Source: Terriglobia bacterium
GTDB taxonomy: Bacteria > Acidobacteriota > Terriglobia > UBA7540
Reading direction: 5' to 3'
Assembly: GCA_020073545.1 (NCBI GenBank)
Contig: JAIQEZ010000046.1
Coordinates: 1-34,731 of the forward strand
DNA length: 34,731 nucleotides
Positions 8,192 through 33,058 of the stretch are shown one piece after another. How positions within the stretch are numbered: the first letter of the stretch is position 1; every line of letters begins with the position of its first letter. The notes under the pieces were generated by a model. That model saw only the letters and a program-made list of their open reading frames with translations, was not told the DNA's origin and searched no databases. Made by a program: the position numbers and the translations under genes.

Positions 8192-8227
8192 TTAACCTGA
8201 ATCCTGCGATGTGATACACTGTAGTGT
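8192..8227 (+). promoter_or_regulatory. Promoter and small dyad of the vapBC pair
   Basis: A -35-like TTAACC (8192-8197) is 17 bases from a -10-like TACACT (8215-8220), each 4 of 6 to consensus. Overlapping the -10 is a dyad ACACT-GT-AGTGT (8216-8227). A ribbon-helix-helix antitoxin normally represses its own promoter by binding such a dyad, so this is a reasonable operator candidate. The transcript would start about 9 bases before the antitoxin ATG, and no ribosome site is visible there. Confidence 0.4.
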
Positions 8228-8235
8228 GTAATGCC

Positions 8236-8520
8236 ATGGCTGCAAAAGTCAGAGTAAACATCACGGTGGATTCCCAGACGCTGCGGCTGGCCGACCGCCT
8301 GGCGCGTGCCCGGAAGATTTCGCGCAGTGCGGTCTTGCGGGAGGGCGTCCACGCACTTGTGGAATACCAGGCGCACCAAGCGCAAGACCGGGCGCGCCAC
8401 GCGAGCCAGCGCCGCGCCTCCGAGGCGATGGACCGACTGGCGCATAAGTTCGGAGACTGGCCTGCGGAGAAAATCTTGCGAGCCGCAAGAGACCGCTGGC
8501 CGGCGCTGAAGAGGGGTTAA
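8236..8520 (+). CDS. Ribbon-helix-helix antitoxin of a VapBC-like pair
   Basis: A 94-residue protein whose N-terminus is a ribbon-helix-helix DNA-binding domain: a short strand (KVRVNITVDS), helix 1 (QTLRLADRLARARK) and helix 2 after ISRSAVLREGVHALVE. The C-terminal half is charged, rich in Arg, Ala and Gln, and likely forms the helix that wraps the toxin. The ATG at 8236 gives MAAKVRVNI; a GTG at 8224 is also in frame. The stop TAA overlaps the toxin ATG by one base (TAATG), the typical coupling of toxin-antitoxin operons. The partner and layout make the antitoxin call strong; activity is inferred. Confidence 0.75.
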   Translation: MAAKVRVNITVDSQTLRLADRLARARKISRSAVLREGVHALVEYQAHQAQDRARHASQRRASEAMDRLAHKFGDWPAEKILRAARDRWPALKRG

Positions 8521-8972
8521 TGGGGAACCCGCCCGCGAGCCCCCTTCTGATTCTCGACACTTCTGTCGTCCTGAAGTGGTTCTTGGAGAAAGACGAACCG
8601 GACGTCGCCCGGGCGCGTAAGCTTCGCGAGGCTTTCCTGAGCCACCGCTGCACGCTTGGCGCTCCCGACCTTTTGCTGGTCGAGGTCGCTAATGCCTTGA
8701 CGGCTGGACACCGATCAAGTCCTAAACAAGTTTCGGAGGCGATCGCGGCCATCCTGGAGATCGGAATACGCTTTTTCGAACTTCAATTCCCGGCACTCGT
8801 GAAGGCGATCGGGCTAGCATCAACTTACGGGGTGACGGTTTACGATTCGTGCTTTCTCGCTGTGGCAATCGAATCGGACGGTCTTCTGGTGACGGCGGAT
8901 GAAGTCTTCTTGCGCAAAGTCGGAGCTCGGGTGAACATCACGTCACTGCGCAACGTGCGCCTGCCAGACTAA
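8520..8972 (+). CDS. vapC: PIN-domain ribonuclease toxin, VapC family
   Basis: A 150-residue PIN-domain protein, expected to be a Mg-dependent RNase that cuts tRNA or other structured RNA when free of its antitoxin. The four acidic residues are in place: Asp13 ([12 protein letters not shown]), Glu55 ([10 protein letters not shown]), Asp109 ([11 protein letters not shown]) and Asp127 (LLVTADEVF). The start is fixed by the one-base overlap with the antitoxin stop and a GAGGGG a few bases upstream. TyrS starts 14 bases after it, so the pair lies in what would otherwise be the purN-tyrS interval. It looks intact. Confidence 0.88.
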
Positions 8973-17125: not shown

Positions 17126-17138
17126 ACTATGAGCACAG

Positions 17139-17154
17139 GCATGTATCCTGCCAA
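17139..17154 (-). promoter_or_regulatory. Sigma-54-type promoter of the last ADOP permease
   Basis: The minus strand reads TGGCAGGATACATGCC, with GG at 17153-17152 and GC at 17141-17140, exactly 10 bases between them, as in the -24/-12 pattern (consensus TGGCACG-N4-TTGC). The predicted start of transcription is near 17128, only three bases before the ATG, so the mRNA would be nearly leaderless. That is the weak point. Confidence 0.5.
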
Positions 17155-17216
17155 GTGACGCTGTCTGTATATGCTTGAAAACGCTTGCTCTGCTTACAGA
17201 GGGCAGGAGGGCGGCT

Positions 17217-17231
17217 GTCCGCTTTTGGGAC
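17217..17231. promoter_or_regulatory. Dyad upstream of a sigma-54 promoter (enhancer candidate)
   Basis: GTCC-GCTTTTG-GGAC, a dyad with perfect 4-bp arms in the context CTGTCCGCTTTTGGGACGG, lies about 75 bases upstream of the -12 element. NtrC-type regulators bind such dyads 70-150 bases upstream of the promoter. A related T-rich dyad is seen upstream of the adaptor gene. Confidence 0.35.
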
Positions 17232-17344
17232 GGGGGCGTTCGGGAGCGAGACGTCCAATGGCGTATTTTAGTCCTGACTGTGGAAGGGTGGTGAAGGCTT
17301 TGCCCTTGCGACTTATCCGCATTTCCTGTCGACGAGCCAGATCC

Positions 17345-18718
17345 TCACAACGGCAAGCGCAGCCGCGCCTCGCATCCGGGGCGATCCTTCCGGTTTTCTA
17401 ACGTAAGGCTCCCGCCGTGGGCTTCCGCGATTTGCCGGCTCAACACCAGTCCAATTCCGGAACCCGTGGGCTTGGTCGTGAAGAAGGGGACAAAGAGGTT
17501 GGAAGTGTTCGACAGCCCTGGACCCTCGTCCTGGATGCGAACCTCCCACTGACCGCCAAGGCGAGTCCAGCCCACGCGAACTCCTCCCCCCGTTTCGAGC
17601 GCCGCATCCACTGCGTTGCGGAGCAAGTTGATAAGGAGCTGCTCCACCTGGTCGGGGTCCGCGTGCACGGTCAGTTCGGGGCCGGGGACCAGAGTGATCC
17701 CCGTTCGCCGTTCGAGTCCGACGACTCGACGCACCAGCGCGCCCGCTTCCACCGGCTGCAGTTTCGGGGTCGGCAGACGAGCGAGCCGGGCATAAGCTTC
17801 CATGAAGCGGCTCAACGCCGCCGCACGCGCCTCGATCACCTCCAGGCCGCGACGCATGTCGTCTTCCCAGTCTGCAGGCCGGGGCTGGCGGGCCAGCATA
17901 CTTTCCAGCGTATCGGCCATGGACTTGATGGGAGCTAGAGAATTATTGAGCTCGTGGCCGAGCACGCGGATCAGTCGCTGCCACGCCTGTCGCTCTTCTT
18001 CGCGCAAGGGACGGCTCAAGTCCGCCAAGACCACGAGCTGATGAGGTTTCCCACTCTCCCGGAAGGTGCTGCGGCGCATGCCCCAGCGTCCTGCTCCGCC
18101 CGGAAAGGAGATCGTCAGGGTCCGAGCGGGCTCTCCTTCCAGGCAATCCGCCAATCCCAGTTCCGCCGCGGTCCGTCCCAGAACGCGCTCGCTGGGTTGA
18201 CCCAAAAGCCGCTCACCCGCGCGATTCATCAGGCGCAGAACCTGCTCGCTATCGAAGGTGAAGACGGCGACGTCGATTTCCTCCATTACCTTGCGCAATA
18301 AGGCAGTCGCTTCCAGCGCTCCCAGCCGGCGTCCGCGTAGCGCCTCGCCTAGAGCGTTCACTTCCAGCATCACTTCTCCCAGCGCGTCATCGGAGCGCGC
18401 GCCGCGAGCGCGAATGGAGTAATCCTCTTCGCGCAAAGCCGCCAGAAGATTGGAAAGCGTCTGGAGGGGATAAACCAGGCGAGAACGGAGGGAAAACGCC
18501 GCGCCGAGCCAAAACACCACCAAGCATGCCGTCAGCGTCCAACGCGTTCGGGTCGTGTAGTCCCCTAACCACAGGAGAAGGACCGACACCAGCACGGCGG
18601 GCAGGCCCGCGAACAAGGCACAGGACAGGAGCCGGACTTCGAAGCGCGTCCGGCGACTGCGACGAGGGGAGCGCCGTGGAGTGGACCTGCTGCTGGTCAC
18701 TACAGGATCATCAGCCAT
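17345..18718 (-). CDS. Sensor histidine kinase (NtrY-like)
   Basis: A 457-residue membrane sensor kinase, the partner of the NtrC-type regulator whose gene lies just upstream. After a basic N-terminus come two membrane helices (about 33-51 and 60-78) with almost no periplasmic loop, a HAMP-like linker (80-130), a PAS domain (about 140-235), the H-box with phospho-acceptor His255 (VLGHELNNSLAPIKS), and a HATPase domain with LLINLLRNAVDAA (N-box), DEGPGL (G1) and GSGIGLVLSRQIAEAHGG (G2). The tiny loop suggests sensing within the membrane or cytoplasm. The HELNNSLAPI sequence is typical of NtrY-like kinases. Signal unknown; the neighbourhood suggests envelope or export stress. Confidence 0.94.
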   Translation of the reverse strand: MADDPVVTSSRSTPRRSPRRSRRTRFEVRLLSCALFAGLPAVLVSVLLLWLGDYTTRTRWTLTACLVVFWLGAAFSLRSRLVYPLQTLSNLLAALREEDYSIRARGARSDDALGEVMLEVNALGEALRGRRLGALEATALLRKVMEEIDVAVFTFDSEQVLRLMNRAGERLLGQPSERVLGRTAAELGLADCLEGEPARTLTISFPGGAGRWGMRRSTFRESGKPHQLVVLADLSRPLREEERQAWQRLIRVLGHELNNSLAPIKSMADTLESMLARQPRPADWEDDMRRGLEVIEARAAALSRFMEAYARLARLPTPKLQPVEAGALVRRVVGLERRTGITLVPGPELTVHADPDQVEQLLINLLRNAVDAALETGGGVRVGWTRLGGQWEVRIQDEGPGLSNTSNLFVPFFTTKPTGSGIGLVLSRQIAEAHGGSLTLENRKDRPGCEARLRLPL

Positions 18719-18728
18719 CCGGTTTTCA

Positions 18729-18890
18729 CCCCGATCCCGAAGCGGGAACCTGCATTGGGGTCTTACACCCAGCGTTTCTAAAAAGGTCCGAGCGTGTCGC
18801 GCCGAACAGCTTCAGCATGAGGGGGATGGGGTATTCATAACATAACCAACGAATTACACGGGATTCGGACCCGCGACCTCGGGATCGGGG
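18729..18890. repeat. Inverted repeat with a tRNA T-arm-like end
   Basis: The gap between regulator and kinase is bounded by a perfect 12-bp inverted repeat, CCCCGATCCCGA (18729-18740) and TCGGGATCGGGG (18879-18890), with further partial matches inside. Next to the right arm, the minus strand reads GCGGGTCCGAATCCCGT (18874-18858), which has the stem-loop and sequence of a tRNA T-arm. No anticodon arm, acceptor or CCA can be completed, so it is a tRNA-like fragment and not a tRNA gene. Confidence 0.5.
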
Positions 18891-18891
18891 T

Positions 18892-20256
18892 TCACAAACT
18901 GTATTTCTTGAGCCGGCGATAGAGTGCACTTCGGCTCAGCCCCAGAGCCTCCGCCGCCGCACTCACGTTCCCCTCGTATCGAGCCAGGGCTTTCTTGATC
19001 AGGAGACATTCTACGTCTTCCAGGCTCATCTCTTCGAGGCGGCCAACCCCCTCGCGTCCCGCCCGCAAGCCCAGGTCGCTGGAACGCACCGCGTCGCCTT
19101 GCGCCATCAGGACGGCGCGTTCCACGGCGTGTTCCAATTCGCGAACATTGCCGGGCCAGGAATAATCCAGCAAAGTCTGCATCGCCGCGCTCTCGAAGCC
19201 GACCAGGTGCTTTCGGTAGCGCTGCGAGAACTGGCGGAGGAAATAGTTCGCCAGCAGCGGCAGGTCTTCGCGCCGCTCCCGCAGAGCTGGCAGACGAATC
19301 TCGATGGTATTCAGCCGGAAGAGGAGGTCCTCCCGGAATCGCCCGGCCTGGATCTCCTGGGAGACGTCGGCATTGGTCGCCGACAAAACGCGCACATCCA
19401 CGCGCCGCGTTTTCGAAGACCCCACGCGCTCCAGTTCACCGGTTTCGAGAACCCGCAGGAGCTTGGCTTGCAGATTCGGCGGGACGTTGGCAATCTCGTC
19501 GAGGAAGAGGGTTCCTCCCTCGGCAAGTTCGAACCGGCCCACCCGATCCGTCTTGGCATCGGTGAAGGCGCCCTTGACGTGGCCGAACAACTCACTTTCG
19601 AAGACCCCTTCGGAAAGCCCGCCGGCATTCACCGTGACCATGGGCCGCGAGGCGCGTTCCGAGAGGGCGTGGAGACTTCGCGCCACTACTTCCTTGCCCG
19701 TCCCATGTTCGCCCGTAATCAACACATTCGCATCGGAGGGACCGACGCGCGCGAGCAAGTCCAGCACGGGTCGCATGGCCGGCGATTCCGCGATCAGGGT
19801 GGGCCGGCCTTCTGCCCGCAGAAGGCGATTTTCTGCCTCCAGGCGCTGCCCCTCCCGCAGCGCGTGGCTCAACTCGATCTGTGTGCGGACTATCGCCAGG
19901 AGACGGGCATTGTCCCAGGGTTTCTGGACGAAATCCCGGGCGCCCCGCCGCATCGCCTCGACGGCGAGACTCACGCTCCCCCAGGCGGTCATGACCACCA
20001 CGGGAAGTGTGCTGTCCATCGCCTGCAAGCGCGAGAGGATATCCAAACCCTCCTGGCCGGAGGTGGTGTCGCGCGCGAAGTTGAGGTCCGTAAGGACCAA
20101 GTCAAAGTCCTTGGACTCCACGGCCGTCATGATGCCCCCGGGTGAGGTGGCGGATTCCGTTTGATAGCCCTCCGCCTTCAGCAGCAAACGAAGGGCTTCC
20201 AGGACGTCCGCCTGGTCGTCAGCGATCAGGATTCTTTTGCTCTGAGAGGTGTTCAT
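18892..20256 (-). CDS. NtrC-type sigma-54-dependent response regulator
   Basis: A 454-residue activator. The receiver domain (1-120) has acidic residues DD13-14, phospho-acceptor Asp57 (LVLTDLNF) with an extended loop (ARDTTSGQEGL), Thr in VVMTAWGS and Lys in VQKPW. The AAA+ domain (about 150-370) has Walker A GEHGTGKE, Walker B GGTLFLDE and the sigma-54 contact loop in the variant form GAFTDA instead of GAFTGA. A Fis-type HTH closes the protein (NVSAAAEALGLSRSALYRRLKKY). The loop Thr, most important for sigma-54 contact, is kept. Its own upstream region carries a sigma-54-type promoter, suggesting autoregulation. The likely targets are the adaptor, itself and the last permease. Confidence 0.95.
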   Translation of the reverse strand: MNTSQSKRILIADDQADVLEALRLLLKAEGYQTESATSPGGIMTAVESKDFDLVLTDLNFARDTTSGQEGLDILSRLQAMDSTLPVVVMTAWGSVSLAVEAMRRGARDFVQKPWDNARLLAIVRTQIELSHALREGQRLEAENRLLRAEGRPTLIAESPAMRPVLDLLARVGPSDANVLITGEHGTGKEVVARSLHALSERASRPMVTVNAGGLSEGVFESELFGHVKGAFTDAKTDRVGRFELAEGGTLFLDEIANVPPNLQAKLLRVLETGELERVGSSKTRRVDVRVLSATNADVSQEIQAGRFREDLLFRLNTIEIRLPALRERREDLPLLANYFLRQFSQRYRKHLVGFESAAMQTLLDYSWPGNVRELEHAVERAVLMAQGDAVRSSDLGLRAGREGVGRLEEMSLEDVECLLIKKALARYEGNVSAAAEALGLSRSALYRRLKKYSL

Positions 20257-20280
20257 GTTCGCTTGGGCCGGACTCCATCA

Positions 20281-20297
20281 TAGCGCGGTTCTTGCCA
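20281..20297 (-). promoter_or_regulatory. Sigma-54-type promoter of the regulator gene
   Basis: The minus strand reads TGGCAAGAACCGCGCTA, GG-N10-GC with TGGCA matching the -24 box. The predicted transcript would begin near 20271, about 15 bases before the ATG of the NtrC-type regulator. Confidence 0.5.
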
Positions 20298-20305
20298 AGT
20301 GTTAG

Positions 20306-20452
20306 GTGAATGAAGAATCGAGTGATCCGGTGGTCTGGTGATCGGGCGAACAAAAAGCATATTTCACAGCGCTGGTTTTCTGTTCGCCCGATCATCGGAT
20401 CTCCCGATCACCAGATGACTCAATGGCCCGATGATTCAATCACTCAATGATT
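20306..20452. repeat. Inverted arrays of 8-bp repeats
   Basis: Left arm: about six 8-bp units (20306-20353) such as AGTGATCC, GGTGGTCT, GGTGATCG. Right arm: nine units in the opposite orientation (20381-20452) such as CGATCATC, CGATCACC, CGATGATT, CAATCACT. The arms are partly complementary around a centre of about 27 bases. The right arm ends exactly at the stop codon of the upstream ATPase gene. Confidence 0.75.
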
Positions 20453-21117
20453 CAGTTCCCCGCGATCCACCCGTCCTGCAGCTTGATGATGCGGTGACCG
20501 TAAGCGGCGTTCGCCTCCGAGTGGGTCACCTGGACGATGGTGGTCCCTTCGTTGTTCAGCTTCTTGAACAACTCCATGATCTCTTTTCCCTGGCCCGAAT
20601 GCAGATTGCCCGTGGGCTCATCGGCAAGAATCAGCTTGGGGCTGGCGATCACGGCGCGTGCCACGGCGACCAACTGTTGCTGCCCGCCGGAAAGCTGGCT
20701 GGGAAATAGATCCTTCTTGCCGACGATCTGAAACCTGTCGAGGGTATCGGCGACCAAAGCCTTCCTCTCAGCGAGTTTCACGTCACGATAGGAAAGAGGA
20801 ATATCCAGATTCTCCGCAACCGTCAGGTTGTCCAGCAGGTGATATTGCTGAAAGACAAAACCGACGTAGCGCTTGTTCAGTTCCATGCGTCTCTTGGGAT
20901 CGAGCTTGTGGACAGGCTGTTCGAAGAAGAAGAATTCTCCCTCCCAACCGGCATCGAGCATTCCCAAGATGCTGAGCAGCGTTGACTTACCCGCCCCCGA
21001 CGGCCCCATGATGGTTACGAATTCACCCTCCGGGATGTCCAAAGCGATACGCCGCAGCACGTAATAGCGGCCTCCCGCCAAGGGATAGTACCGGTCTAGA
21101 TTGTGTAGTTTGATCAT
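20452..21117 (-). CDS. ABC transporter ATP-binding protein (MacB/LolD type)
   Basis: A 221-residue stand-alone ATPase: Walker [10 protein letters not shown] (38-46), Q-loop VFQQYHLL, signature LSGGQQQ, Walker B LILADEPT, and a terminal switch His in VTHSE. It is expected to power one or more of the neighbouring ADOP permeases, which lack their own ATPase. The ATG has an AGGGA 7 bases upstream. It lies between a permease gene and the regulator, in the same direction. It is not a close copy of the second ATPase in this cluster; for example it lacks that protein's 26-residue polar N-terminal extension. Confidence 0.94.
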
Positions 21118-21132
21118 AGCGTTGTCCCTAAA

Positions 21133-21223
21133 TTGGGCGATTGAGTGATTTGGCGATTGAGTGATTGAGAATCGCCAAGATTTTGGGCAATCGCTCGATC
21201 ACACAATCACCGGATCACCCGAT
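21133..21223. repeat. Inverted arrays of 8-bp repeats
   Basis: Left arm (21133-21172): five units, TTGGGCGA, TTGAGTGA, TTTGGCGA, TTGAGTGA, TTGAGAAT. Right arm (21184-21223): TGGGCAAT, CGCTCGAT, CACACAAT, CACCGGAT, CACCCGAT. The arms oppose each other around an 11-base centre and sit between the permease stop and the ATPase start. Confidence 0.75.
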
Positions 21224-21227
21224 TACG

Positions 21228-23618
21228 TCATTCGTATCTGAGCGCCACCATGGGATCGACCTTCGCCGCCCGGCGCGCGGGGAAGTAAATGGACAAGGCT
21301 GCCACAAGCCCGAGCAGACAGACCGATGCAATGAAGACCAACGGGTCGTGTGCCTTGACTTCAAATAGCTGGCTCTCAAGGAGGCGCGCCAATGCGAGCG
21401 CGGCGGCCAACCCGACCACGATGCCTATGATTGACGGTTTCATCCCTCCTATTAGAACCAGTCGCATGATGTCACGGCGTTGCGCCCCAAGAGCGGTGCA
21501 AATGCAGAGCTCGCGGGTTCGCTGACCAATCGCGCAGGACATCATGCCGTAGATACCGACGCTCGCGAGGCTTATTGCGACCGTGGCAAACAAGCCCAAT
21601 AGGATCAGCGTCGTGCGTCTAGGTGCCAGCGAGTTGCGGACGGCCTGTTCGAGCGTTCGAACGTTGGCGATGGGTTGATCGGGATCGGCTTCGAGGATGG
21701 TTTTCCTTACCGCCTTAACGAGAGCTAACGCCGGTTGCGCAGTTCGAATGATCATGCTCGTTGACATGGGGGAGTAGGATTGAGGACCATAAACTGTCGG
21801 ACGTGGGTCACGGTCCAGGAAGAATTGACGGACTGGGGCGACAATTCCCACGATTTCCCAGGACTCATCCAGAAAACTCAGATGCTGACCGATGGGATCC
21901 TCGTCGGGATAAAGGTCGCGTACGACACTTTCATCGACCACAAGCACTCGAGACGCCTTCGCGTGGTTATCCGATTCACTGATGGCACGCCCGCGCAGAA
22001 GCGGCATCCCCATCGCTGAAAAATAGTCGCCACTCACAAAGTTGCAGGCAACAATATAGTCCGTACGCGGAGGCTTATCCGCCCGGCCTGCGAACTCAGT
22101 CCGTCCATCATTGCTAAGCGGCAATGCAGAAGTGGCACCCACGGATTCAACGCCAGGCAGAGCAGCGACACGCGCATTCAGGTCCTTGATGAACCGCAGC
22201 CGGTCCTCACCCTTGGGGTACTTGGCGTCAGGAAATGACAGATCGAACGCCAACGTTTGCCTCGGATTGAAACCGGGATTCGTCTCAAGCAACAAAACGA
22301 AGCTGCGCAGAAACAAACCCACCCCAACAAGCAACATCAGTGTGAACGCGAATTCTGATACCACCAGGAATGACTGTGATCGCCTCTTTGACCTAGACGC
22401 CGATGCCCGTTCGGTTTCCTTCAGGGCGTGATTCAAATCTGGTTTACTCGTGCGCCATGCTGGGAGGATTCCAAACAGAAGTCCGCAGCCACAGGCGACA
22501 CCGATCGAAAACACAAGGACGTTGATGTCCAACTTGGGTTGCAGAACCTGGGGAAGCAGGCCGGCAAACATGCTGGTCAGCAGTTTGACACCGAATAGGG
22601 CAAACAGCAGACCCACCGCGCATCCCGCCACGGCGAGAAGGAGACTCTCGACGAGTATTTGACGGACAATCCGCCATGAGTCGGCACCGAGAGCAGCGCG
22701 AATGGCCATTTCTCTGGATCGGGCGTTACCACGAGCCAGCAGCAGATTGGAGACATTCGCGCAGGCGATCAACAATACCAATGCCACGGCCCCCAACAAA
22801 ACGACGAGGATCGGACGGGTGTCCCCTGCGTAAACCTCCTGCATGGGGACAACCGCGACGCTCCAGTCTGTCTTGAACGACGGATATTCCGCTGTAAGTC
22901 GCTGTTTGATTCCCCGCAGTTCCGCCTGCACCTCGGATACAGTGACGCCCGGCAAAACGCGCCCTATCACTTGCCTCCAGTGACCGGCGCGCTCCCAATT
23001 CGCTCCGGCAGCATCAATAACATCAGGCACCAGAAACATGGCATCGTCCTGCAAAAGAACGTTGGGAGGAAGCACACCGATAACTGTATAGGGAATCTGG
23101 TCGAGTGAGACGGTCCTGGCGACAACGCCCGCGTCTCCGCCGAAGCGACCCTGCCACAATTGGTGCGTCAATACGATGACACGATTGTTGCCGCCCACAG
23201 CATCTTCCCCAGCAACAAAGCCGCGACCGACGGTCGGAGTGACACCCAGAGCCGAAAGAAATTCAGAGGAGACCTTCAAACCGGAGACGCGTTCCGGCAT
23301 TCTACCTCCGGTGAGATTCAAACGCGTCTCTTCATAGACGGCGAGATGGGCAAATTTGGAGCTCTGTCCATGCCAGTCTTTGAAGGCGCCTCCGGAGACC
23401 GAATTACGGTCGAAACCCGGCAGGGTTTCATATATCCGCACAAGCTGTTGCGAATCAGGATAGGGCAGCGGCTTAATCAGAACTGAATTGACCACGCTGA
23501 AGATCGCCGTGTTAGCCCCGATGCCCAGCGCCAAGGTAATAATCGCCACGGCCGTGAAGCCGGGATTCTTGGCCAGCATCCGTAGGCCGTATTTGATGTC
23601 CTGGAACAGAGCACTCAT
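21228..23618 (-). CDS. ADOP-type ABC permease
   Basis: A 796-residue duplicated MacB-like permease. It starts [28 protein letters not shown], the N-terminus nearly shared with two other copies here, followed by a first membrane helix, a periplasmic MacB core, three FtsX helices (the first around VLLIACANVSNLLLARGNARSREMAIR), a second core (NPGFNPRQTLAFDLSF) and a final FtsX block ending [23 protein letters not shown] six bases before the ATG at 23618 supports this start; an upstream GTG/CTG-type extension is not needed. It lies between the two ATPase genes. Cargo unknown. Confidence 0.93.
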   Translation of the reverse strand: MSALFQDIKYGLRMLAKNPGFTAVAIITLALGIGANTAIFSVVNSVLIKPLPYPDSQQLVRIYETLPGFDRNSVSGGAFKDWHGQSSKFAHLAVYEETRLNLTGGRMPERVSGLKVSSEFLSALGVTPTVGRGFVAGEDAVGGNNRVIVLTHQLWQGRFGGDAGVVARTVSLDQIPYTVIGVLPPNVLLQDDAMFLVPDVIDAAGANWERAGHWRQVIGRVLPGVTVSEVQAELRGIKQRLTAEYPSFKTDWSVAVVPMQEVYAGDTRPILVVLLGAVALVLLIACANVSNLLLARGNARSREMAIRAALGADSWRIVRQILVESLLLAVAGCAVGLLFALFGVKLLTSMFAGLLPQVLQPKLDINVLVFSIGVACGCGLLFGILPAWRTSKPDLNHALKETERASASRSKRRSQSFLVVSEFAFTLMLLVGVGLFLRSFVLLLETNPGFNPRQTLAFDLSFPDAKYPKGEDRLRFIKDLNARVAALPGVESVGATSALPLSNDGRTEFAGRADKPPRTDYIVACNFVSGDYFSAMGMPLLRGRAISESDNHAKASRVLVVDESVVRDLYPDEDPIGQHLSFLDESWEIVGIVAPVRQFFLDRDPRPTVYGPQSYSPMSTSMIIRTAQPALALVKAVRKTILEADPDQPIANVRTLEQAVRNSLAPRRTTLILLGLFATVAISLASVGIYGMMSCAIGQRTRELCICTALGAQRRDIMRLVLIGGMKPSIIGIVVGLAAALALARLLESQLFEVKAHDPLVFIASVCLLGLVAALSIYFPARRAAKVDPMVALRYE

Positions 23619-23645
23619 TCGTATCCTCGGCTTTGAGCACCGAAC

Positions 23646-23827
23646 TTTCAGCACTCAGCAATCAGCGTTCAGCTTTCAGCTACTGCCCCAACCACCCCGC
23701 CTCCGATTTCTGGAGTCCGATGGACTCCATCGGAGTCCAGCAATCGGACCTGCGGGCTCCCCTCCCGCCGCGGCGGGAGGGGACTCAGGGGTGGTGCTGA
23801 CCGCTGATGGCTGATTGCTGAGAGCTG
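23646..23827. repeat. Structured intergenic element, copy 1
   Basis: Five tandem 7-bp units NNTCAGC (23646-23680) at the left and about four NN-shifted inverse units GCTGANN (23796-23827) at the right. Inside are CCAACCACCCC, facing GGGGTGGTG, and two perfect hairpins: TGGACTCC-ATC-GGAGTCCA and CCCCTCCCGCCGCGGCGGGAGGGG. Two homologous copies precede other permease genes here (27590-27756 and 30219-30389). Confidence 0.8.
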
Positions 23828-23835
23828 GACCCCTG

Positions 23836-23872
23836 CTCACCCGATCACTGGGTCTGCCGATCATCCGATTCC

Positions 23873-23875
<3 letters not shown>
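23836..23875. repeat. Single array of 8-bp repeats
   Basis: Five 8-bp units in one orientation (CTCACCCG, ATCACTGG, GTCTGCCG, ATCATCCG, ATTCCTCA), ending in the stop codon of the ATPase gene. No opposite arm is present, so this looks like half of the inverted form seen elsewhere in the cluster. Confidence 0.55.
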
Positions 23876-24622
<747 letters not shown>

Positions 24623-24644
24623 AATGTTCTCCTCAGTTCAAGTC

Positions 24645-24672
24645 GCTAGTGGTTGGTGGTCAGTGGCTAGAG
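24645..24672. repeat. 7-bp array, left flank of four-helix gene
   Basis: Four tandem 7-bp units: GCTAGTG, GTTGGTG, GTCAGTG, GCTAGAG. In the sense of the enclosed gene they supply its last codons and stop. They are inverse to the array at 25078-25119. Confidence 0.7.
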
Positions 24673-25049
24673 GCCACCCGCACCACCACCCTTCGGCGCA
24701 AGGACCCGAGCATCTTCTGCAGCTCGACGATCATTGCGGCACTCTGGTGTGCCGAGGAGTGTTGGCAGTATCCCAACTCGACCGCAAGCGTTAGCTGCGT
24801 GTCCAGTTCCGCCAACGAGCCCTCGGCATGAGACGGAAATTGAACGAATTCTTTTCTCCCTTGCCGTGCCTGGCCCTCGGGAATATCGGACGGGACCGAA
24901 ACGGCGGCTCGCCGCATCTGGGCAATCAAGCCGAACTTTTCATCATCGGGGAAGGCACGCGTCATAAAGTAGACCTGCTTCGCCAAGGCCATATCCTTTT
25001 GCCATACTAGGAGATCCCGGTAGCTCTTGATCCCACCTTCTCCACTCAC
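24660..25049 (-). CDS. Four-helix-bundle protein (S23 / 23S rRNA intervening-sequence protein family)
   Basis: A 129-residue protein with the family's characteristic order: IKSYRDLLVWQKDMALAKQVY, FPDDEKFGLIAQMRRAAVSVPSDIPEG and KEFVQFPSHAEGSLAELDTQL, then a last helix with LGY. The bundle is encoded in rRNA intervening sequences and also found widely as a free gene. FPSHAEGS and SDIPEG depart from the usual FLSIARGS and SNIAEG. The GTG start has a GGAG seven bases upstream. The gene is inserted between ATPase and permease genes, and 7-bp arrays flank it on both sides. The last codons and the stop fall inside the left array. Molecular role unknown. Confidence 0.88.
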   Translation of the reverse strand: MSGEGGIKSYRDLLVWQKDMALAKQVYFMTRAFPDDEKFGLIAQMRRAAVSVPSDIPEGQARQGRKEFVQFPSHAEGSLAELDTQLTLAVELGYCQHSSAHQSAAMIVELQKMLGSLRRRVVVRVASSH

Positions 25050-25077
25050 AGCGGTTCTCCAGAAACTGCGCGCTGTT

Positions 25078-25119
25078 GCTACCCGCTACCCACTGGGTAC
25101 TAGCCACTAACCACTAACC
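25078..25119. repeat. 7-bp array, right flank of four-helix gene
   Basis: Six tandem 7-bp units: GCTACCC, GCTACCC, ACTGGGT, ACTAGCC, ACTAACC, ACTAACC. They are opposite in orientation to those at 24645-24672 and upstream of the four-helix gene on its own strand. The array ends six bases before the stop codon of the neighbouring permease gene. Confidence 0.75.
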
Positions 25120-25125
25120 AGTGCT

Positions 25126-27576
25126 TTACTCATAGCGCAAGGCCACCATGGGATCGACCTTCGTCGCCCGTCGCGCGGGGATGTAGCACGCTGCAAGAGA
25201 CACCAGTACCAAGAGAGCCGCAACTCCGGCAAGGGTGAGCGGGTCGTGGGCGCTGACCCCGAAGAGCATATTCGCCATCAGGCGCGTCAGCCCGAAGGCG
25301 GCCACCAGGCCGATGGCAACACCCACGAGCGCCATGCTCGCCCCTTCAGCAAGAACCATCCGCCGCACATCCCGCCGCTCAGCGCCGAGCGCCATGCGCA
25401 CTCCAATTTCATGCGTCCGCTGGCCAGCAAGACAGGAAATCACCCCATAGATTCCGACGCAGGACATGACGAGCGCAAGCCCGGCGAAAATTCCTAGGAG
25501 GACCATCGAGAAGCGCCGCGCCGCGAGCGAGCCGGAAATGATCTCTTCAAACGTCTGGATGTTGTACATCACCTGCTGGCTGCTGATCTGGTTCAGGGTT
25601 TGGCGGATCGAGCCGACTTGAGCGAGCGGCGAGCCCGCGGTTCGGACCACGATTCCCGTGTGGCCGGCCATTAAGGGGATAAACGGGTCCGGGATTTGCA
25701 TCATTTGTAAATAGCATTGCGCCTGGAGGGACGAGGTCGCGTCCGTGTCAAGACCCCATTGCTTGACATGCCCAACCACGCCGACGATCTCAGCCGTGGC
25801 GTTCAAGATATCGAAGTTGATACGCTTGCCGATAGGATCTTGATTGCCGAAATAGAGCTTTGCAAAGCGCTCGTCGATGACGGTGACGAGCGGGGTATGT
25901 TCTTTATCCTCGGATGAGAGGAAACGGCCGCGCAGGAGGGGAATCCCCATCGCCTTCAAATAATTGGGCTGCACAATGTAGAAGAGCGTCTGCTTCATTT
26001 CCGCCTGACTTGGGGGCTTGGGTTGGCCTTCCAGCCAGAACGGCACCTCGGAATCGCCGGACATGGGCATGGCTGCGGTTGTTAGCGAGGCGGATTGAAC
26101 GCCGGGGACCGTAGCGACCTGATCTTGAATCCGGCGCCAGGCGGCTCGAGCAGAATCTGGGTTTGAGCTGGCCGCCGGGGGAAGCGACACCCGGAAGGTC
26201 ACCACGTGGTGGGGATCGAAACCGGGATCAACGCTCCAGAGCTTGGCCAGGCTGCGAATCATGAGTCCGGCACCGGCCAGCAGGACGAGCGCGAGCGCCA
26301 TCTCCGCGACCACGAAAACTCTCTGGGCGCTATGCCGGGCGCCGCTCGACCCGCGTCCGCCTTCTTTGAGGGTTTCATGGAGATCGGCCTGCGAAGTTTT
26401 GAGTCCCGGCACCAAACCGAACAAGATTCCTGCCAGGAAGGAAGTTGCAAGCGTAAACAACAACACCCGCCCGTCAAGATGAACTTCCTCGGCTCGCGGC
26501 AACGCCTCCGGCAGCACGCGCAGGGCTGCCCTCATTCCCCAGGAGGCGATCAGTAAGCCAAGGCCACCCCCGGCCAGGGCCAGCAGGACGCTTTCAGTCA
26601 GAAGCTGCCGGACGACGCGGGCCCGGTTCGCCCCCAACGCGGTGCGGATGGCAAACTCATGGGTGCGAGCCGTCGAGCGCGCCAGCAAGAGATTTGCGAC
26701 GTTCACGCAAGCAATCAGGAGAACAAAACCTACGGCGGCCAGCAAGACCAGCAGAAACGGCTGGGTGTCGCCCACAACGTTCTGTTTCAGCGGGACCAGC
26801 GTGATCCCTGTGCCTCTGTTGGCCTCGGGATACTCCTCGGCCAGGTGCCGCCCGAGCGCGTCCATGTCGGCATTCGCCTGCTCGAAGGTGACGCCGGGCT
26901 TGAGCCTCCCGACCGCATTCATGCCCATGCCGGTTCTGCGGTCGCGAAAAGTGGGGTCGTTCCACTGGCCGATCGGGACGTACACGTCACCCAGATGGAA
27001 GTTGTTGCCGCTGTAATGGAAATCGGCCGGGATCACGCCGACGATCGTGTACGCCGTCCCATTCAGCGTGAGTGTCTTGCCCACCGCGTCCGGCGCAGCT
27101 CCGAACTTGCGTTTCCAAAATCCGTCGCTGATCAGCACCACCGGCGCCGCGCCTATTTGGTCCTCTTCGGGGAGAAATGTCCTGCCGATAGCCGGCCGCA
27201 CACCGAGCAGCGGGAAGAAACTCGCCGAGATCATCTCCGCTGGCAGGCGCTCGGGCTCACCGATCCCGGTCAGGTCAAAGCTGTCTGTCCGATAGCCGGC
27301 GAGGGCGGAAAAGGAACGATTCTCGCGCACCCAGTCGAGGAAGTTGGGGTAGGAAATGGACCACCACGGGGAATCTGGCGTCCGCGAGTAGAGCGCCACG
27401 AGGCGTTCGGGCTCCGCGTAGCGTAGCGGATTGAGCAGTACTCCGTTCACCACGGAGAAGATCGCGGTGTTCGCGCCGATCCCGAGCGCCAAGGTAATAA
27501 TCGCCACCGCCGTGAAGCCGGGGTTCTTCGCGAGCATCCGCAGGCCGTATTTCAAGTCCTGGAACAGAGCACTCAT
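25126..27576 (-). CDS. ADOP-type ABC permease
   Basis: An 816-residue duplicated MacB-like permease with the shared N-terminus [28 protein letters not shown]. It has a first core (about 50-280), FtsX helices beginning near [34 protein letters not shown], a second half with [19 protein letters not shown], and the end [19 protein letters not shown], which also ends the next copy upstream. The ribosome site GAGG sits six bases before the ATG, in an upstream stretch identical to two other copies. The first and last parts of the gene are more conserved among copies than the cores, which presumably set cargo. The four-helix element lies downstream of it. Confidence 0.93.
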
Positions 27577-27589
27577 TCGTATCCTCGGT

Positions 27590-27756
27590 TTCCAGCAATC
27601 AGCAGTCAGCTTTCAGCTACTGCCCCAACCACCCCGCCTCCGACTTCTGGAGTCCGATGGTCCGATCCAGATCGGACCAGCAATCGGACCTGCGGGCTCC
27701 CCTCCTTAGCAGGGAGGGGACTCAGGGGTGGTGCTGATCGCTGACCGCTGATAGCT
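27590..27756. repeat. Structured intergenic element, copy 2
   Basis: Four 7-bp units (27590-27617) and three inverse units (27733-27756), with the same core as copy 1. The first hairpin is TGGTCCGATC-CA-GATCGGACCA, different in sequence from copy 1 but still perfectly paired; the second is CCCCTCC-TTAGCAG-GGAGGGG. The right arm ends at the base before the permease stop codon. Confidence 0.8.
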
Positions 27757-30198
27757 TTACTCATATCTCAGCGCCACCATGGGATCGACCTTGGTCGCCC
27801 GCCGCGCGGGGATGTAGCAGGCAACGAGTGACACCAGGCATAGCAACAACGCCACCGCCGCATAGGTCAGTACGTCAGTGGTTGTAACGCCGAAGAGTGC
27901 ACTTTCCAGATAGCGTGTCAGCGCGACTGACACCGCAATGCCCACAGCGAGGCCGGTCAGTGTCAGAAGTAGACCCTGGCCCAGCACCAGCCGGAAAACG
28001 TCAGCTCGCTGAGCTCCGACCGCCATGCGAATCGCAATCTCATGTGTGCGCTGCCGCGTCGAGTAAGCGATCACTCCGTAGATACCCACTGCCGCGAGGA
28101 TTAGGGCGAGTAATCCAAAGGCGCCCGCGAAGGTTCCCGCGACCCGTTCGAAGATGCTCCCCAACCGCATGCTCGACTTGAGGGTCGTCACGCCGAACAC
28201 GGGCAAATCGGCGTTGAGCTCATGGACAGTTCTTTCGACCGCCGGGGCGTAAGCCTGCGGATCACCTGACACCCGCGCGTGAATCATCACTAGGTCGCGG
28301 TAGCGCTGGTAAAGCGGCTGGAAGAAGACGGGCTCCGGGGCATAAACCAAGCGGCGGTACTTGCCATTTCGAGCCACGCCCACGACGGTGAACCACTGCC
28401 CGTATACGCTAACCCTCTTGCCAAGCCCGTCCTGACCCGGCCAGTACCGATTGACAAACTCCTGATTGACGATCGTGACCCGCTGTGACTTCTCGGCGTC
28501 CTGCTCGGTAAATTCACGCCCGGCCACGAGGCGAGTTCGCATGGTCCGAAAGTAGTTCGGACCCACGATGGCACGGCTGACTTCCATCGATTCGTGGGGC
28601 TGGGGAACGTAACCATCGGGACTGACGAAATCGCTGTGAAGGGTGAAACTGAGCGGCGAGAAATCCGCCAGAGTCGCCGACTCAACCCCTGGCAGGGCTG
28701 CGAGCTTCGAAAGCAGTTGCCGGTCGAACGCAATGCCTTGTGCTTCGGAATAGCCCATGGGCCCGAGCTCGTAGGAAGCCAGCAGCACGTGGTTGGGATC
28801 GAAACCGGGATCTAACCGCTGGGCGTTCTGCAAGCTGCGGATGAACAGACCGGCGCAAATCAGCAGGAGCAGCGAGAGGGAGATTTGCGCCACCACCAAC
28901 GCGCTCGAGAGCCGCGACTTGTGGAGTCCCGCCGTCATGCTGCCAGCTTCCTCCTTCAGAACTGCGATGGGGGTGAGGCTGGACGTGCGCAGCGCCGGAA
29001 GCACGCCGAAAAGCGCGGCGGTAACAATCGAGATGAGCAGGGTCGCCAGGAGCACGCCGCGGTCGATGTGGCCATTGAGCGTGAGCGGCAAACTCGTCGT
29101 GGGGGGAAAGAAGGCGGCAAACGTCCCGGCCGTCCAGGTGGTGAGCGTCAGGGCGAGCGCGCCGCCGACTAGAGCCAACAGGAGGGTTTCCACCAGGAGC
29201 TGGCGGATCAGCCGCCAGCGGCTGGCGCCCATGGACAGGCGCAGAGCAATCTCACGCCGCCGGGTCACGGAGCGTACCAGCAACAGATTGGCAACGTTGG
29301 CGCAGGCCAGCAAAAGCAACACGGCCGCCAACGCCAGCAACATGGGCAGTGTCTTGTACAAATAAACGTTGGCTCCGAAAGGCGAGCGCCAGAGAGGATC
29401 GAGCGTAATCTGGCTGGGGCCGCGATCGACGTTGCGAGAAGTCTCGATAATCTGCTGCATCAGGAGGTTCAGTTCCCCCTCGGCTTGCCGGCGATCTACT
29501 CTGGGCTTCAGCCGGGCGAGCACGTTCAGCCAGAAGCTACCGCGATCCTCAAGGCGATTCGAGCTCCAAACGAGCCGGTCCATCACGAGAGGAATCCACA
29601 CGTCTGTACGCAGCCCGGTCTTGCATCCCTGAAATTCCGGAGGAGCAACCCCGACAATCGTGTATTGATGAAGGTTGATCTGAATGCTCCGGCCGATGAT
29701 GGATCCGTCGGAGCCGAAGCGCGTCCGCCACAGGCCCTCGCTGATCACAACCACCGGCGATCCCCCGCGGTTCTGTTCTTCCGCCGGCAGGAAACCACGA
29801 CCGAGGATGGGACGCACGCCGAGCACATCGAAGTAATTAGCAGAGGTCAGAGCCCCATAGATGCGCTCCGGCTTGTCGGTGCCGGTAAGGGACATGAAGT
29901 CGTCGTGGTACGCCAGGAGGCCGGAGAGGCTCTGGGTGTGGTCACGGAGATCCAGGTAATCAAGATAAGAGAAAGGGGGAGTGGGGTGTTCACTACGTTC
30001 TCCCCTCATGACCGTAACCAAGTCGCTGGTGCCGGCGACTCCAGGAATAGGGTTTAGCAGGGTGGAGTTGATCCAACTGAAGATGGTGGCGTTGGCGCCA
30101 ATGCCCAGGGCCAGCGTTACCGCCGCCACGGCCGTGAAGCCGGGATTCTTCGCCAGCATCCGCAGGCCGTATTTCAAGTCCTGGAACAGAGCACTCAT
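27757..30198 (-). CDS. ADOP-type ABC permease
   Basis: An 813-residue duplicated MacB-like permease. The N-terminus is the shared [25 protein letters not shown], then diverges ([23 protein letters not shown]). The FtsX block begins VLLLLACANVANLLLVRSVTRRREIALR and the second half starts near LDPGFDPNHVLLASYELG. It ends [20 protein letters not shown], identical to the copy downstream. The ribosome site and upstream bases match those two copies exactly. Cargo unknown. Confidence 0.93.
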   Translation of the reverse strand: MSALFQDLKYGLRMLAKNPGFTAVAAVTLALGIGANATIFSWINSTLLNPIPGVAGTSDLVTVMRGERSEHPTPPFSYLDYLDLRDHTQSLSGLLAYHDDFMSLTGTDKPERIYGALTSANYFDVLGVRPILGRGFLPAEEQNRGGSPVVVISEGLWRTRFGSDGSIIGRSIQINLHQYTIVGVAPPEFQGCKTGLRTDVWIPLVMDRLVWSSNRLEDRGSFWLNVLARLKPRVDRRQAEGELNLLMQQIIETSRNVDRGPSQITLDPLWRSPFGANVYLYKTLPMLLALAAVLLLLACANVANLLLVRSVTRRREIALRLSMGASRWRLIRQLLVETLLLALVGGALALTLTTWTAGTFAAFFPPTTSLPLTLNGHIDRGVLLATLLISIVTAALFGVLPALRTSSLTPIAVLKEEAGSMTAGLHKSRLSSALVVAQISLSLLLLICAGLFIRSLQNAQRLDPGFDPNHVLLASYELGPMGYSEAQGIAFDRQLLSKLAALPGVESATLADFSPLSFTLHSDFVSPDGYVPQPHESMEVSRAIVGPNYFRTMRTRLVAGREFTEQDAEKSQRVTIVNQEFVNRYWPGQDGLGKRVSVYGQWFTVVGVARNGKYRRLVYAPEPVFFQPLYQRYRDLVMIHARVSGDPQAYAPAVERTVHELNADLPVFGVTTLKSSMRLGSIFERVAGTFAGAFGLLALILAAVGIYGVIAYSTRQRTHEIAIRMAVGAQRADVFRLVLGQGLLLTLTGLAVGIAVSVALTRYLESALFGVTTTDVLTYAAVALLLCLVSLVACYIPARRATKVDPMVALRYE

Positions 30199-30218
30199 TC
30201 GTATCCTCAGTTTTGAGC

Positions 30219-30389
30219 CATCAGCATTCAGCGATCAGCAGTCAGCGTTCAGCTTTCAGCTACTGCCCCAACCACCCCGCCTCCGATTTCTGGAGTCCGA
30301 TGGACTCCATCGTAGTCCAGCAATCGGACCTGCGGGCTCCCCTCCTTAGCAAGCAGGGGAATCACGGGTGGTGCTGACCGCTGATAGCT
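30219..30389. repeat. Structured intergenic element, copy 3
   Basis: Six 7-bp units (30219-30260) and two to three inverse units (30373-30389), with the same core as copies 1 and 2. The first hairpin is shorter (TGGACT / AGTCCA), and the second is down to CCCCT / AGGGG, so this copy is degrading. Its right end touches the stop codon of the permease at 30390. Confidence 0.78.
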
Positions 30390-32888
30390 TTACTCATATC
30401 TCAGCGCCACCATCGGATCGGCCTTCGCCGCGCGCCGGGCGGGAAGCAAGCAGGCCAGGAAAGCCACCAGCAGAAACATGCCCGTGCTGCCGACGTACGT
30501 GATCAGGTCGCTCCCGGTGATCCCGAAAAGACTGCTTTGCAGGAGCCGTCCGACTCCCCAGGCCCCGGCCAATCCCAACAGGATCCCCGGCAGGACAAGC
30601 CTGAATCCCCGCCACAAGACGGCTTGCAGGATTTTCGCCCTGGACGCGCCGAGCGCCATGCGGATGCCCATCTCGCGCGTGCGGCGACTGACGATGAACG
30701 CGAGCACTCCGTAGATGCCTACCAAGGCCAGCAGCAGGGCAGTGCCAGCAAAAAAGGTGAACAGGTTCATGTTGAAACGGCGGCCGGAGAGGGTGCCGGC
30801 GATGCGGGCCGTCATGGGCTGCACATCGGAGATCGGCTGATCACCGATGACTGGCAGGAGGGTCGTGCGCATGGAGGCCACGAGGCTGGCGGGATCCATG
30901 CGGGTATGTATTGCCAAGTACATGTCCGTCGGCACGGGAAACTGATGCACCGACAAGTAGAATTCGGGATTCTCACCTCGATCCAGCCCATACTGAGTCG
31001 TGTTGCCTACAACGCCGACGATCTGCACGAAGAGACGCGGTTCGTTCGGAGGAGTCCTGGGACGGAACCGTTTGCCGACGGGATCTTCACCCGGCCAGTA
31101 CTGTGCGGCCATGCGCTGACTGATGACTCCATCGAAAGGCAGGTCTTTGAAGATGGTGTAGTAGCCTTGCCGCTTGATATCGAAGCCGGGGGGAACGACG
31201 GGTTGGGGTTCCCGGCCATTCAGCAACCGGCCGCGCACGAGAGGAATGCCCATGGCGCGAAAATAGCCCGCGCTCACAATATGTAAACTTACGTCAGAAA
31301 CATTGGCTGGTGCCGGCTCCGGCCGCCCTTCAGGATAAATGGGCAGACTAGAGTTCGTTCCGCTAAAAGGAAGCGTCGTGATGACGGCACATGCGTCCAC
31401 TTCAGGCCGGTTGCCGACAGTCTCGAGAATCCGTTCGTAGTAGGCCGCGAAACTGAACGGAGCGCGCAGGAACTGGTCCAGGGACGGTGAGGGCAGTCTC
31501 AGTGCGAGGACGCGCTCCGGCTGGAAACCGGGGTCGACCTGCGTCAGCCGCCCCAGACTGCGGATCATCAGACCTGCGCCCACAAGCAGCGTGAACGCGA
31601 GGGCCACTTGGCTCACGACCAGCAGATCCCCGGCACGAAACCTGCCACCCGGCGTGCGCGCGACGCGCTCAGTGCCTTTCAGGGCGTCGATGGGATTGGC
31701 GTGGGACAACCGCCAGGCCGGAGCGAGACCGAAACCGATGCCGGTGGCTAGGGTGACGGAGACGACAAACAGCAGGACGCGCAAGTCGAGACCAGGGCTG
31801 ATGCCTGCCACTTGCTGCATCCCGAGCGGAACCAAGCGGAAAACCAAGTCATAGATCCACAGGCCAAACAGCCCACCAACCGCTCCCCCGCCGATCGCCA
31901 GCAGGAGACTCTCGGCCAGCAACTGGCGCATCAACTGGAGGCGTGAAGCGCCCAGGCCGACGCGGATGGCCATCTCACGCTGGCGGCCGGCGGAGCGGGC
32001 CAAGAGCATGTTGGCCAGATTGACGCAGGCGATCAGCAGGATGGTGCCCACTGCGCCGAGCAGCAGGAAGAGCTGCGTGCGCACCGGGCCCGCGATGTGT
32101 TCGCGCAGGGGCATGACGTTCGCCACGATGCCGGCGTTGGCTTCGGGATACTGTCTCTGGAGTCGCCGTGCGATCGTGTCCATCTGCGTCCGCGCGGTTT
32201 CCAGTGTCACGCTGGGCTTCAGGCGCCCGATCACGAAAGTACTTGCGCGGGTCATCCGGGCTGTCATGCCCATCTGCTCCGCATACGGCGCCAGAGGCAG
32301 GCACACGTCGGCCGGCTGGATGAACCTGAAAGCCGCGGGTAGGATGCCGGCCACGGTGACCGATTGCCCCTCCAGCGAAATCGCCCGGCCCACCAGATCC
32401 GGATCAGCGGCAAAGTACTTCTGCCAGGCGGTGTACGAAATCCAGGCGACCGGGGCGGCCCCAGCCTGGTCGTCTTTGGCAATCATACCCCGGCCCTGGA
32501 CGATGCGGACTCCCAGTGCGGCGAAGAAGCCGTGCGAGACCATCAGGGTGGGAATCCGCTCCACGCTGTCAACCGTTCTTAACATTCCGCTGTCAATTTG
32601 GTAGATGGACAGTTCAGAGAAGACATTCTGCTGGGCACGCCAGTCGAGGAAGTTGGGATACGAGACCGATCCATCGCGGGAGAAAGTGCTGTTGCGCTCT
32701 GTGATCCAGAGCAAACGGTCGGGATCGGGATAAGGCAGCGCGCGCAGGAATGTGGTGTTAACCACATTGAAGATCGCGGTGTTGGCGCCGATACCGAGCG
32801 CGAGCGTCAGCACCGCCACCGCCGTGAACCCCGGGTTCTTCGCCAACATCCGAAGGCCGTAACGCAAGTCTTGGAGCAGTGTGCTCAT
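30390..32888 (-). CDS. ADOP-type ABC permease, first in cluster
   Basis: An 832-residue duplicated MacB-like permease, the longest of the five. It starts [28 protein letters not shown], related to but distinct from the three MSALFQD copies. The FtsX block begins ILLIACVNLANMLLARSAGRQREMAIRVGLGASRL; the second core opens with VDPGFQPERVLALRLPSPS; the end is [18 protein letters not shown]. It follows the MacA-like adaptor gene, from which an 8-bp-repeat element separates it. The adaptor and this permease may form the original MacAB-like core of the system. Confidence 0.93.
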   Translation of the reverse strand: MSTLLQDLRYGLRMLAKNPGFTAVAVLTLALGIGANTAIFNVVNTTFLRALPYPDPDRLLWITERNSTFSRDGSVSYPNFLDWRAQQNVFSELSIYQIDSGMLRTVDSVERIPTLMVSHGFFAALGVRIVQGRGMIAKDDQAGAAPVAWISYTAWQKYFAADPDLVGRAISLEGQSVTVAGILPAAFRFIQPADVCLPLAPYAEQMGMTARMTRASTFVIGRLKPSVTLETARTQMDTIARRLQRQYPEANAGIVANVMPLREHIAGPVRTQLFLLLGAVGTILLIACVNLANMLLARSAGRQREMAIRVGLGASRLQLMRQLLAESLLLAIGGGAVGGLFGLWIYDLVFRLVPLGMQQVAGISPGLDLRVLLFVVSVTLATGIGFGLAPAWRLSHANPIDALKGTERVARTPGGRFRAGDLLVVSQVALAFTLLVGAGLMIRSLGRLTQVDPGFQPERVLALRLPSPSLDQFLRAPFSFAAYYERILETVGNRPEVDACAVITTLPFSGTNSSLPIYPEGRPEPAPANVSDVSLHIVSAGYFRAMGIPLVRGRLLNGREPQPVVPPGFDIKRQGYYTIFKDLPFDGVISQRMAAQYWPGEDPVGKRFRPRTPPNEPRLFVQIVGVVGNTTQYGLDRGENPEFYLSVHQFPVPTDMYLAIHTRMDPASLVASMRTTLLPVIGDQPISDVQPMTARIAGTLSGRRFNMNLFTFFAGTALLLALVGIYGVLAFIVSRRTREMGIRMALGASRAKILQAVLWRGFRLVLPGILLGLAGAWGVGRLLQSSLFGITGSDLITYVGSTGMFLLVAFLACLLPARRAAKADPMVALRYE

Positions 32889-32899
32889 CGTCTATCTCA

Positions 32900-33058
32900 A
32901 ATCGGGCCATCGGGAGATCGGGTGATCCGGTGAACGAGAAATCGGGTCACCGGCGCTTGCGCTCATCGGGTGATCAAGTGACCGGGAGATGGGACGACAG
33001 TTCTATTCTTTGTTCACCCGATCAACCGATCACCAGATCCCCCGATCTCCCGATGGCT
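32900..33058. repeat. Inverted arrays of 8-bp repeats
   Basis: The left arm holds about 12 8-bp units (32900-32995), for example CATCGGGA, GATCGGGT, GATCCGGT; the right arm has six in the opposite sense (33012-33058), GTTCACCC, GATCAACC, GATCACCA, GATCCCCC, GATCTCCC, GATGGCTT. A 16-base AT-richer centre separates them. The right arm runs to the stop codon of the adaptor gene. Confidence 0.8.

Follow-up and report, generated by a model that had tools for sequence, protein, structure and literature searches.

An IVP (S23-type) gene in a Terriglobia bacterium lies between two arrays of a repeated 7-bp word that face each other in opposite orientation. The same layout surrounds most other IVP genes that we surveyed. 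These mirror-image heptamer flanks, which track the lineage of the protein, point to a family of mobile units that has been overlooked and to which the insertions in rRNA also belong. We think it probable that the unit described here is a mobile element of the 23S intervening sequence (IVS) type, whose protein, presumably a pentameric ring, would bind its own heptamer at both ends and could thereby take part in moving the unit.

An IVP gene enclosed by inverted heptamer arrays

The window, that is, the whole 34,731-nucleotide stretch that we analyzed (contig JAIQEZ010000046.1), contains an ORF that matches the PF05635 (23S_rRNA_IVP) profile with an E value of 7e-34 (116.6 bits, curated cut-off 33.8). 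A preliminary description made from the letters of the DNA had reported an S23-like gene with opposed 7-bp arrays upstream and downstream, and the sequence, the ORFs, and TRF all bear this out (Table 1). On the sense strand, the upstream array reads TGGTTAG TGGTTAG TGGCTAG TACCCAG TGGGTAG CGGGTAG from 25120 down to 25079. Its outer three units are near-identical (sense TGGTTAG/TGGCTAG), giving the word nTAGTGG. The downstream array, read on the same strand from 24672 down to 24645, starts CTCTAGCCACTGACC and ends CCAACCACTAGC. As had been described, it supplies the last codons of the gene, AGC CAC, and the TGA stop (24660-24662). Both arrays face inward, and the arms align as TGGTTAGTGGTTAGTGGCTAG vs TGGTTGGTGGTCAGTGGCTAG. 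Their similarity is z = 6.2 against shuffles, and the lag-7 identity is 17/21 in one flank and 15/21 in the other.

Table 1. Positions of the IVP unit, its parts, and gene-less array units in the window
Feature	Position	Strand	Details or basis
IVP / S23 four-helix-bundle gene	24660..25049	-	129 aa; called start codon GTG; domain 24705-25019
Upstream array, six 7-bp units	25079..25120	-	sequence; TRF 25099-25120; lag-7 17/21
Downstream array, four 7-bp units, inverted orientation	24645..24672	-	sequence; arm alignment
Whole unit	24640..25124	-	homology breakpoints in relatives G002, G004, G006, G007, G008
Gene-less inverted 7-bp array unit (TCAGCnn ... GCTGAnn)	23645..23827	.	upstream of permease gene; dispersed palindrome nested inside
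Second copy of TCAGCnn ... GCTGAnn gene-less unit	27593..27756	.	
Third copy of TCAGCnn ... GCTGAnn gene-less unit	30227..30389	.	TRF
Gene-less inverted array unit, 8-bp period, ATCGGGTG / CACCCGAT	32900..33057	.	

The unit fills the gap between an ABC ATPase gene (23873-24622, reverse strand) and a MacB-like permease gene (25126-27576, reverse strand), both identified by Pfam, which agrees with the earlier account. No transposase gene was found inside it by Pfam; the only gene matches PF05635 and, weakly, bAvd. When the unit is folded as RNA, its two ends are brought together (z = -1.9). The fold, the arm alignment, and the arm similarity thus give the unit complementary ends around an S23p ORF. 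The 23S rRNA IVSs of Coxiella, Leptospira, and Brucella likewise encode this family between complementary ends. In contrast to those, the window unit has a protein gene on either side and is not within a 23S rRNA gene, and nearly all other loci are also outside rRNA, mostly in operon gaps and with many different words.

Inverted arrays flank IVP genes in many phyla

The genome from which the window derives (the source genome) carries about 17 IVP genes. Nearly all have inverted, roughly 7-bp arrays in their flanks, with a word specific to the locus (TCAGT, TCAGC, TCCGAAG, CAGGTG, GTAGGTG, and TCGAAA among them). Arm similarity exceeded z = 3 relative to dinucleotide shuffles at 16 of 17 loci; the preliminary description had thus met a single instance of a general pattern. 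Among control small genes drawn from about 358 kb of stretches of the source genome, 2 of 116 passed the same threshold, and none was periodic at 7 bp in both flanks.

Searching named genomes yielded 80 loci, a set biased to one clade because the query was a single protein (alignment A1 of the family proved too diverse to serve as a pattern). They come from Chloroflexi, Bacteroidota, Cyanobacteria, Planctomycetes, Nitrospirota, Gemmatimonadota, Deltaproteobacteria, Spirochaetes, Patescibacteria, and others. Arms with z > 3 were present at 70/78 of these loci, compared with 7/300 random windows and 7/213 windows from the same contigs. Period 7 occurred in about 77% of flanks, and other periods in 0-5%. 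The Spirochaete loci, a set made up mostly of the best-scoring locus per genome (the source-genome set comprises every IVP hit), show the same array behavior; no 23S-resident copy was present among 20 of them. IVP genes were also present in 34/41 genomes of a sample of relatives, with up to 19 matches per genome, and no IVP match was found in phages.

Altogether, significant inverted flanks (z > 3) occur at 189 of the 210 distinct IVP loci, which span at least a dozen phyla, and 21 loci do not have significant arms. Both flanks were periodic at lag 7 at 128 loci and at lag 8 at 13, compared with 0-2 loci for other lags. As an orientation control, arms compared as direct repeats exceeded z = 3 at 62/210 loci, an excess that is probably due to partly self-similar words such as TCAGC...GCTGA. 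The inverse 7- or 8-bp arrays sought at other S23-family genes are therefore present, and they are far rarer at the control positions than the preliminary description would have needed for a chance association with gene junctions. The observation made in the window is confirmed and is general.

The repeated word follows the protein lineage

Averaged over loci, the word reads T-C-A-G-C-n-n, and AG is its most constant part. Words were more similar between the two arms of one locus (0.58) than between loci (0.43), and word distance followed protein distance with a Mantel r of 0.54 (null maximum 0.17 in 999 permutations). The correlation also held in the source genome alone (r = 0.43, P < 0.001). 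Between proteins that are 60-70% identical, often from different phyla, word similarity was 0.51 against a background of 0.38. Freely drifting non-coding repeats should not keep such similarity, which ties the word to the protein. This correlation may come from joint inheritance and not from binding; joint inheritance of gene and arrays would itself argue for a unit, without proving binding.

These data bear on whether the arrays are simply slippage repeats in tolerant gaps where IVP genes happen to settle. Inverted arrays that contain no gene do exist in the source genome and, in one relative, at the window junction itself, and a gene-less heptamer array occupies the Moorena site in sister species (see below). 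An independent hot spot is nevertheless highly improbable given the strength of the association (90% vs about 2%), the way the word tracks the protein clade, and the lack of arrays at the four scoreable bAvd loci.

The protein is predicted to share the fold of Avd

According to PMC4990558, IVP/S23 proteins lack a known function. The AlphaFold model of one family member from our set (L001) consists of four helices, with a pLDDT of 97. It aligned to 2gsc with a TM score of 0.96 and to Avd (4dwl) with a TM score of 0.83, and the modeled fold also matches Avd in DGR ribonucleoprotein structures. The 2gsc and 2rld entries contain five chains each, and 2gsc is a toroidal homopentamer (PMC4990558). 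Although the Avd and bAvd proteins of DGRs share the four-helix-bundle fold with IVP, bAvd differs in two respects: the window protein scores 20.8 bits with the bAvd profile, below the cut-off of 40, and no arrays were found at the four scoreable loci among the five best bAvd hits (IVP-HMM score under 26).

The ring protein TRAP has evenly spaced repeated NAG targets, in which AG is most conserved. The combination of a ring protein with evenly spaced short words resembles that seen for IVP, by analogy only.

Orthologous junctions with and without the unit

Orthologous junctions, both occupied and unoccupied, were found for the units in the window, Pedobacter, Moorena, and Azospirillum. For the window unit, homology with relatives on the ATPase side ends at 24635-24639, breaking at the array, and restarts on the permease side at about 25093-25127. 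The empty-site comparison that had been proposed for this ATPase-permease junction thus identified relatives that do not carry the unit (G002, G004, and G008). At the same place, G006 has a gene-less pair of TCAGC arrays, and G007 has an unrelated hairpin.

In Pedobacter, more than two dozen of the species sampled carry an IVP unit, about 400-580 bp long, at one operon junction, presumably between argC- and argD-like genes as named from our reading of the sequence. Other Pedobacter species do not have the unit there and often carry a different hairpin, commonly of the type TGTCATGCTGAG...CTCAGAATGACA (L279-L290). The words at this junction differ by species (TAAGT, TAAGG, GAAGG, and AAAGT types). 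Both arms change in step, and the protein subfamily changes along with the word. The IVPs at this site are under purifying selection, with a median dN/dS of 0.076.

In Moorena, four sister species match the upstream flank of the unit at 88-96% identity and carry another heptamer array there, without a gene. The closest relatives of the Moorena unit (82-87%) sit elsewhere in the genomes of the sister species.

These sites support the part of the preliminary description that proposed a discrete unit with its own protein; the movement itself we infer. We found no pair of near-identical IVP copies within a single genome (the source-genome IVPs compared are 21-67% identical to L001), so recent movement was not seen.

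A unit inside 23S rRNA

A plasmid search identified an unannotated IVP gene on plasmid AZO_p2 of Azospirillum lipoferum 4B (L378); the gene table of the collection lists no annotation for it. The whole L378 stretch is 23S rRNA according to Rfam RF02541, and inverted heptamer arms of the GACAGAN type surround the IVP gene. On AZO_p3 of the same strain, the 23S flanks are identical over the compared stretch and do not contain the unit. Where AZO_p2 has a 473-nt unit, AZO_p3 has a 19-nt hairpin tip, GTGTGATCTTCGATCACGC, at a place that we take to be helix 45 of 23S rRNA from the sequence context and the established 23S structure. One hairpin has thus been exchanged for another, with 19 nt replaced and no target-site duplication. 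No target-site duplication was apparent at the Pedobacter site either.

In the IVS of Coxiella, tandem GACAGAT heptamers, in 2-3 copies that vary between strains, lie upstream of the S23p ORF, next to its start codon (Warrier et al., PMC4990558). The kinship with 23S intervening sequences that had been suggested for the window unit is upheld by L378, which lies inside 23S rRNA, has the same kind of arms, and carries a GACAGAN word that matches the Coxiella heptamer.

The arms do not behave as a selected RNA stem

If the arms served an exact stem, permuting the order of heptamers in one arm should lower pairing. It did not: the mean z was 0.03, or 0.12 with G-U pairs allowed. There was also no G-U wobble asymmetry between the arms (171 compatible vs 160 incompatible mismatches); these tests span 127-165 loci. 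We therefore rejected the exact-stem hypothesis. The arms are about 84% alike because both repeat one word, and the repeated word, recognized many times, seems to be the conserved feature and to matter more than the duplex. Highly constrained, rarer sites such as 23S may need good pairing as well. Of the structured RNA unit that the preliminary description had proposed, the pairing of the ends in the fold stands, whereas an exact stem as a conserved feature is unsupported.

The same tests weigh against a selfish RNA hairpin in which the arrays serve a stem cleavable by RNase III and the IVP gene is a passenger. Such a hairpin would fit the fact that RNase III excises 23S IVSs (PMC4990558), the nearly perfect, long outer stem of the Azospirillum 23S unit, and the end-to-end fold of the window unit. 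However, a stem needs no fixed 7-bp period, and IVP is under strong purifying selection at the Pedobacter site. Together with the absence of any order-dependent pairing or wobble asymmetry, these points make an RNA-only element quite improbable.

Position and orientation of units in operons

Neighboring genes could be called at 185 loci. Both lie on the IVP strand at 134 and both are opposed at 14, such that units in transcripts have the sense orientation and mostly follow a stop codon. The IVP stop codon falls within the downstream array at 84/165 loci, and the upstream array precedes the IVP domain by a median of 49 nt. The host operons are unrelated to one another and include ABC permeases, argC-argD-like genes, cas6-cas4, nrdB-nrdA, and 23S rRNA. 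On cyanobacterial plasmids, units occupy cas6-cas4 gaps (Pseudanabaena and Anabaena; L374 and L376) and an nrdB-nrdA gap, the latter unit being opposed to its neighbors. A large survey found IVP genes beside CRISPR adaptation genes (PMC10910872), and residence between cas6 and cas4 is the likely reason for that association.

The sense orientation and the array just before the IVP domain are well explained if IVP is a domesticated regulator that binds the array in its own transcript, in the way TRAP binds repeated NAG triplets, and controls the translation or stability of the operon, with mobility being incidental. Purifying selection on IVP and the pairing of a ring protein with evenly spaced words would also agree with this, and TAACTGA repeats located just upstream of start codons have been proposed as sites of a post-transcriptional regulator (PMC4679880). 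A regulator would leave unexplained why one operon junction has the unit in some species and not in their sisters, and why units come and go in unrelated operons, and it would make the second, inverted array downstream superfluous. We consider regulation as the primary role unlikely.

A possible route of movement and relation to known elements

In the mobile-unit reading that we favor, each unit would comprise one IVP gene and, marking its two ends, a pair of inverted arrays in which the 7-bp word is repeated about 4-6 times. In both arrays, the IVP ring would recognize its own word at a spacing of 7 nt, either in DNA or in the transcript. Through this recognition, the unit or a copy of it could be moved to places where a hairpin already exists or is tolerated, such as operon gaps and rRNA hairpins. 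The inserted unit would then be co-transcribed, and its imperfect stem could permit harmless processing, as RNase III does for 23S IVSs; since there is no sign of a selected exact stem, this step would be weak outside rRNA. The window unit encodes no catalytic enzyme, only an IVP gene. Our guess is that a host or trans-acting helper enzyme places the unit, by analogy with Avd, which acts with a reverse transcriptase on a target that needs a hairpin; homing of DGRs requires a hairpin or cruciform at the target (PMC3240598).

Like REP/RAYT and MITE-type elements, the units combine a protein gene with inverted-repeat flanks and dispersed gene-less copies. They differ from these in having IVP as the sole gene and ends made of tandem 7-bp arrays and not of one fixed hairpin. 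Heptamer arrays have previously been described piecemeal (PMC4679880, PMC4692102, PMC2700814, and PMC4990558), and IVPs have been treated as ORFs of 23S IVSs that lacked an explanation. The cyanobacterial STRR, Beggiatoaceae TAACTGA, Xanthomonas GGGAATC (70-75 inverted pairs; PMC4692102), and Geobacter MTYCTGA repeats are likewise tandem 7-bp words in gene gaps, but they have not been linked to IVP, and PMC4679880 and PMC4692102 do not mention four-helix proteins. In the open literature that we searched, with subscription journals and most preprints lying outside it, no paper joins heptamer arrays with IVP genes; priority is uncertain.

We tentatively propose, with slightly more doubt than confidence, that the IVP units form one widespread, overlooked class of mobile elements, in which an Avd-like pentameric ring would recognize the tandem 7-bp word that marks each end and one hairpin would be swapped for another. 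The ORF-containing 23S IVSs would be its rRNA members, and many STRR, TAACTGA, and GGGAATC arrays would be gene-less derivatives. With a cognate DNA word beside nearly every IVP gene, the family acquires a first concrete partner that can be tested, and ORF-containing 23S IVSs gain a source outside rRNA. The proposal may also account for the scattered heptamer repeats of cyanobacteria, Beggiatoaceae, Xanthomonas, and Geobacter.

Gene-less arrays in the source genome

A strict scan showed that gene-less inverted 7- or 8-bp arrays are rare, with about nine pairs in 358 kb, the window included. Under the proposed mechanism, such arrays would be derivatives that have lost the gene. We considered whether the gene-less TCAGCnn ... 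GCTGAnn unit of the window is itself mobile and rejected this, because its only full copies in the source genome are three, all beside paralogous permease genes, and gene duplication explains them. The window contains five paralogous MacB-like permease genes within 14669-32888. Inverted-array units bound four consecutive paralogues (21228-32888), and three of these bounding units are the copies of the one gene-less unit, apparently duplicated with the permease genes. Nested in the gene-less unit is a palindrome of ~50 bp (23701-23750), a REP-like repeat that is dispersed through the source genome in at least a dozen copies and also occurs in relatives.

Inverted arrays that have an 8-bp period and no gene (GATCGGGT / GATTGAGT types) lie at 20315-20450, 21132-21223, and 32900-33057 of the window. 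They occupy gene gaps near ABC transporter genes, and more are present in two other stretches of the source genome (L024 and L025). Elsewhere in the window, two adjacent small genes (8224-8972) resemble, by eye, a ribbon-helix-helix antitoxin and a PIN-domain toxin.
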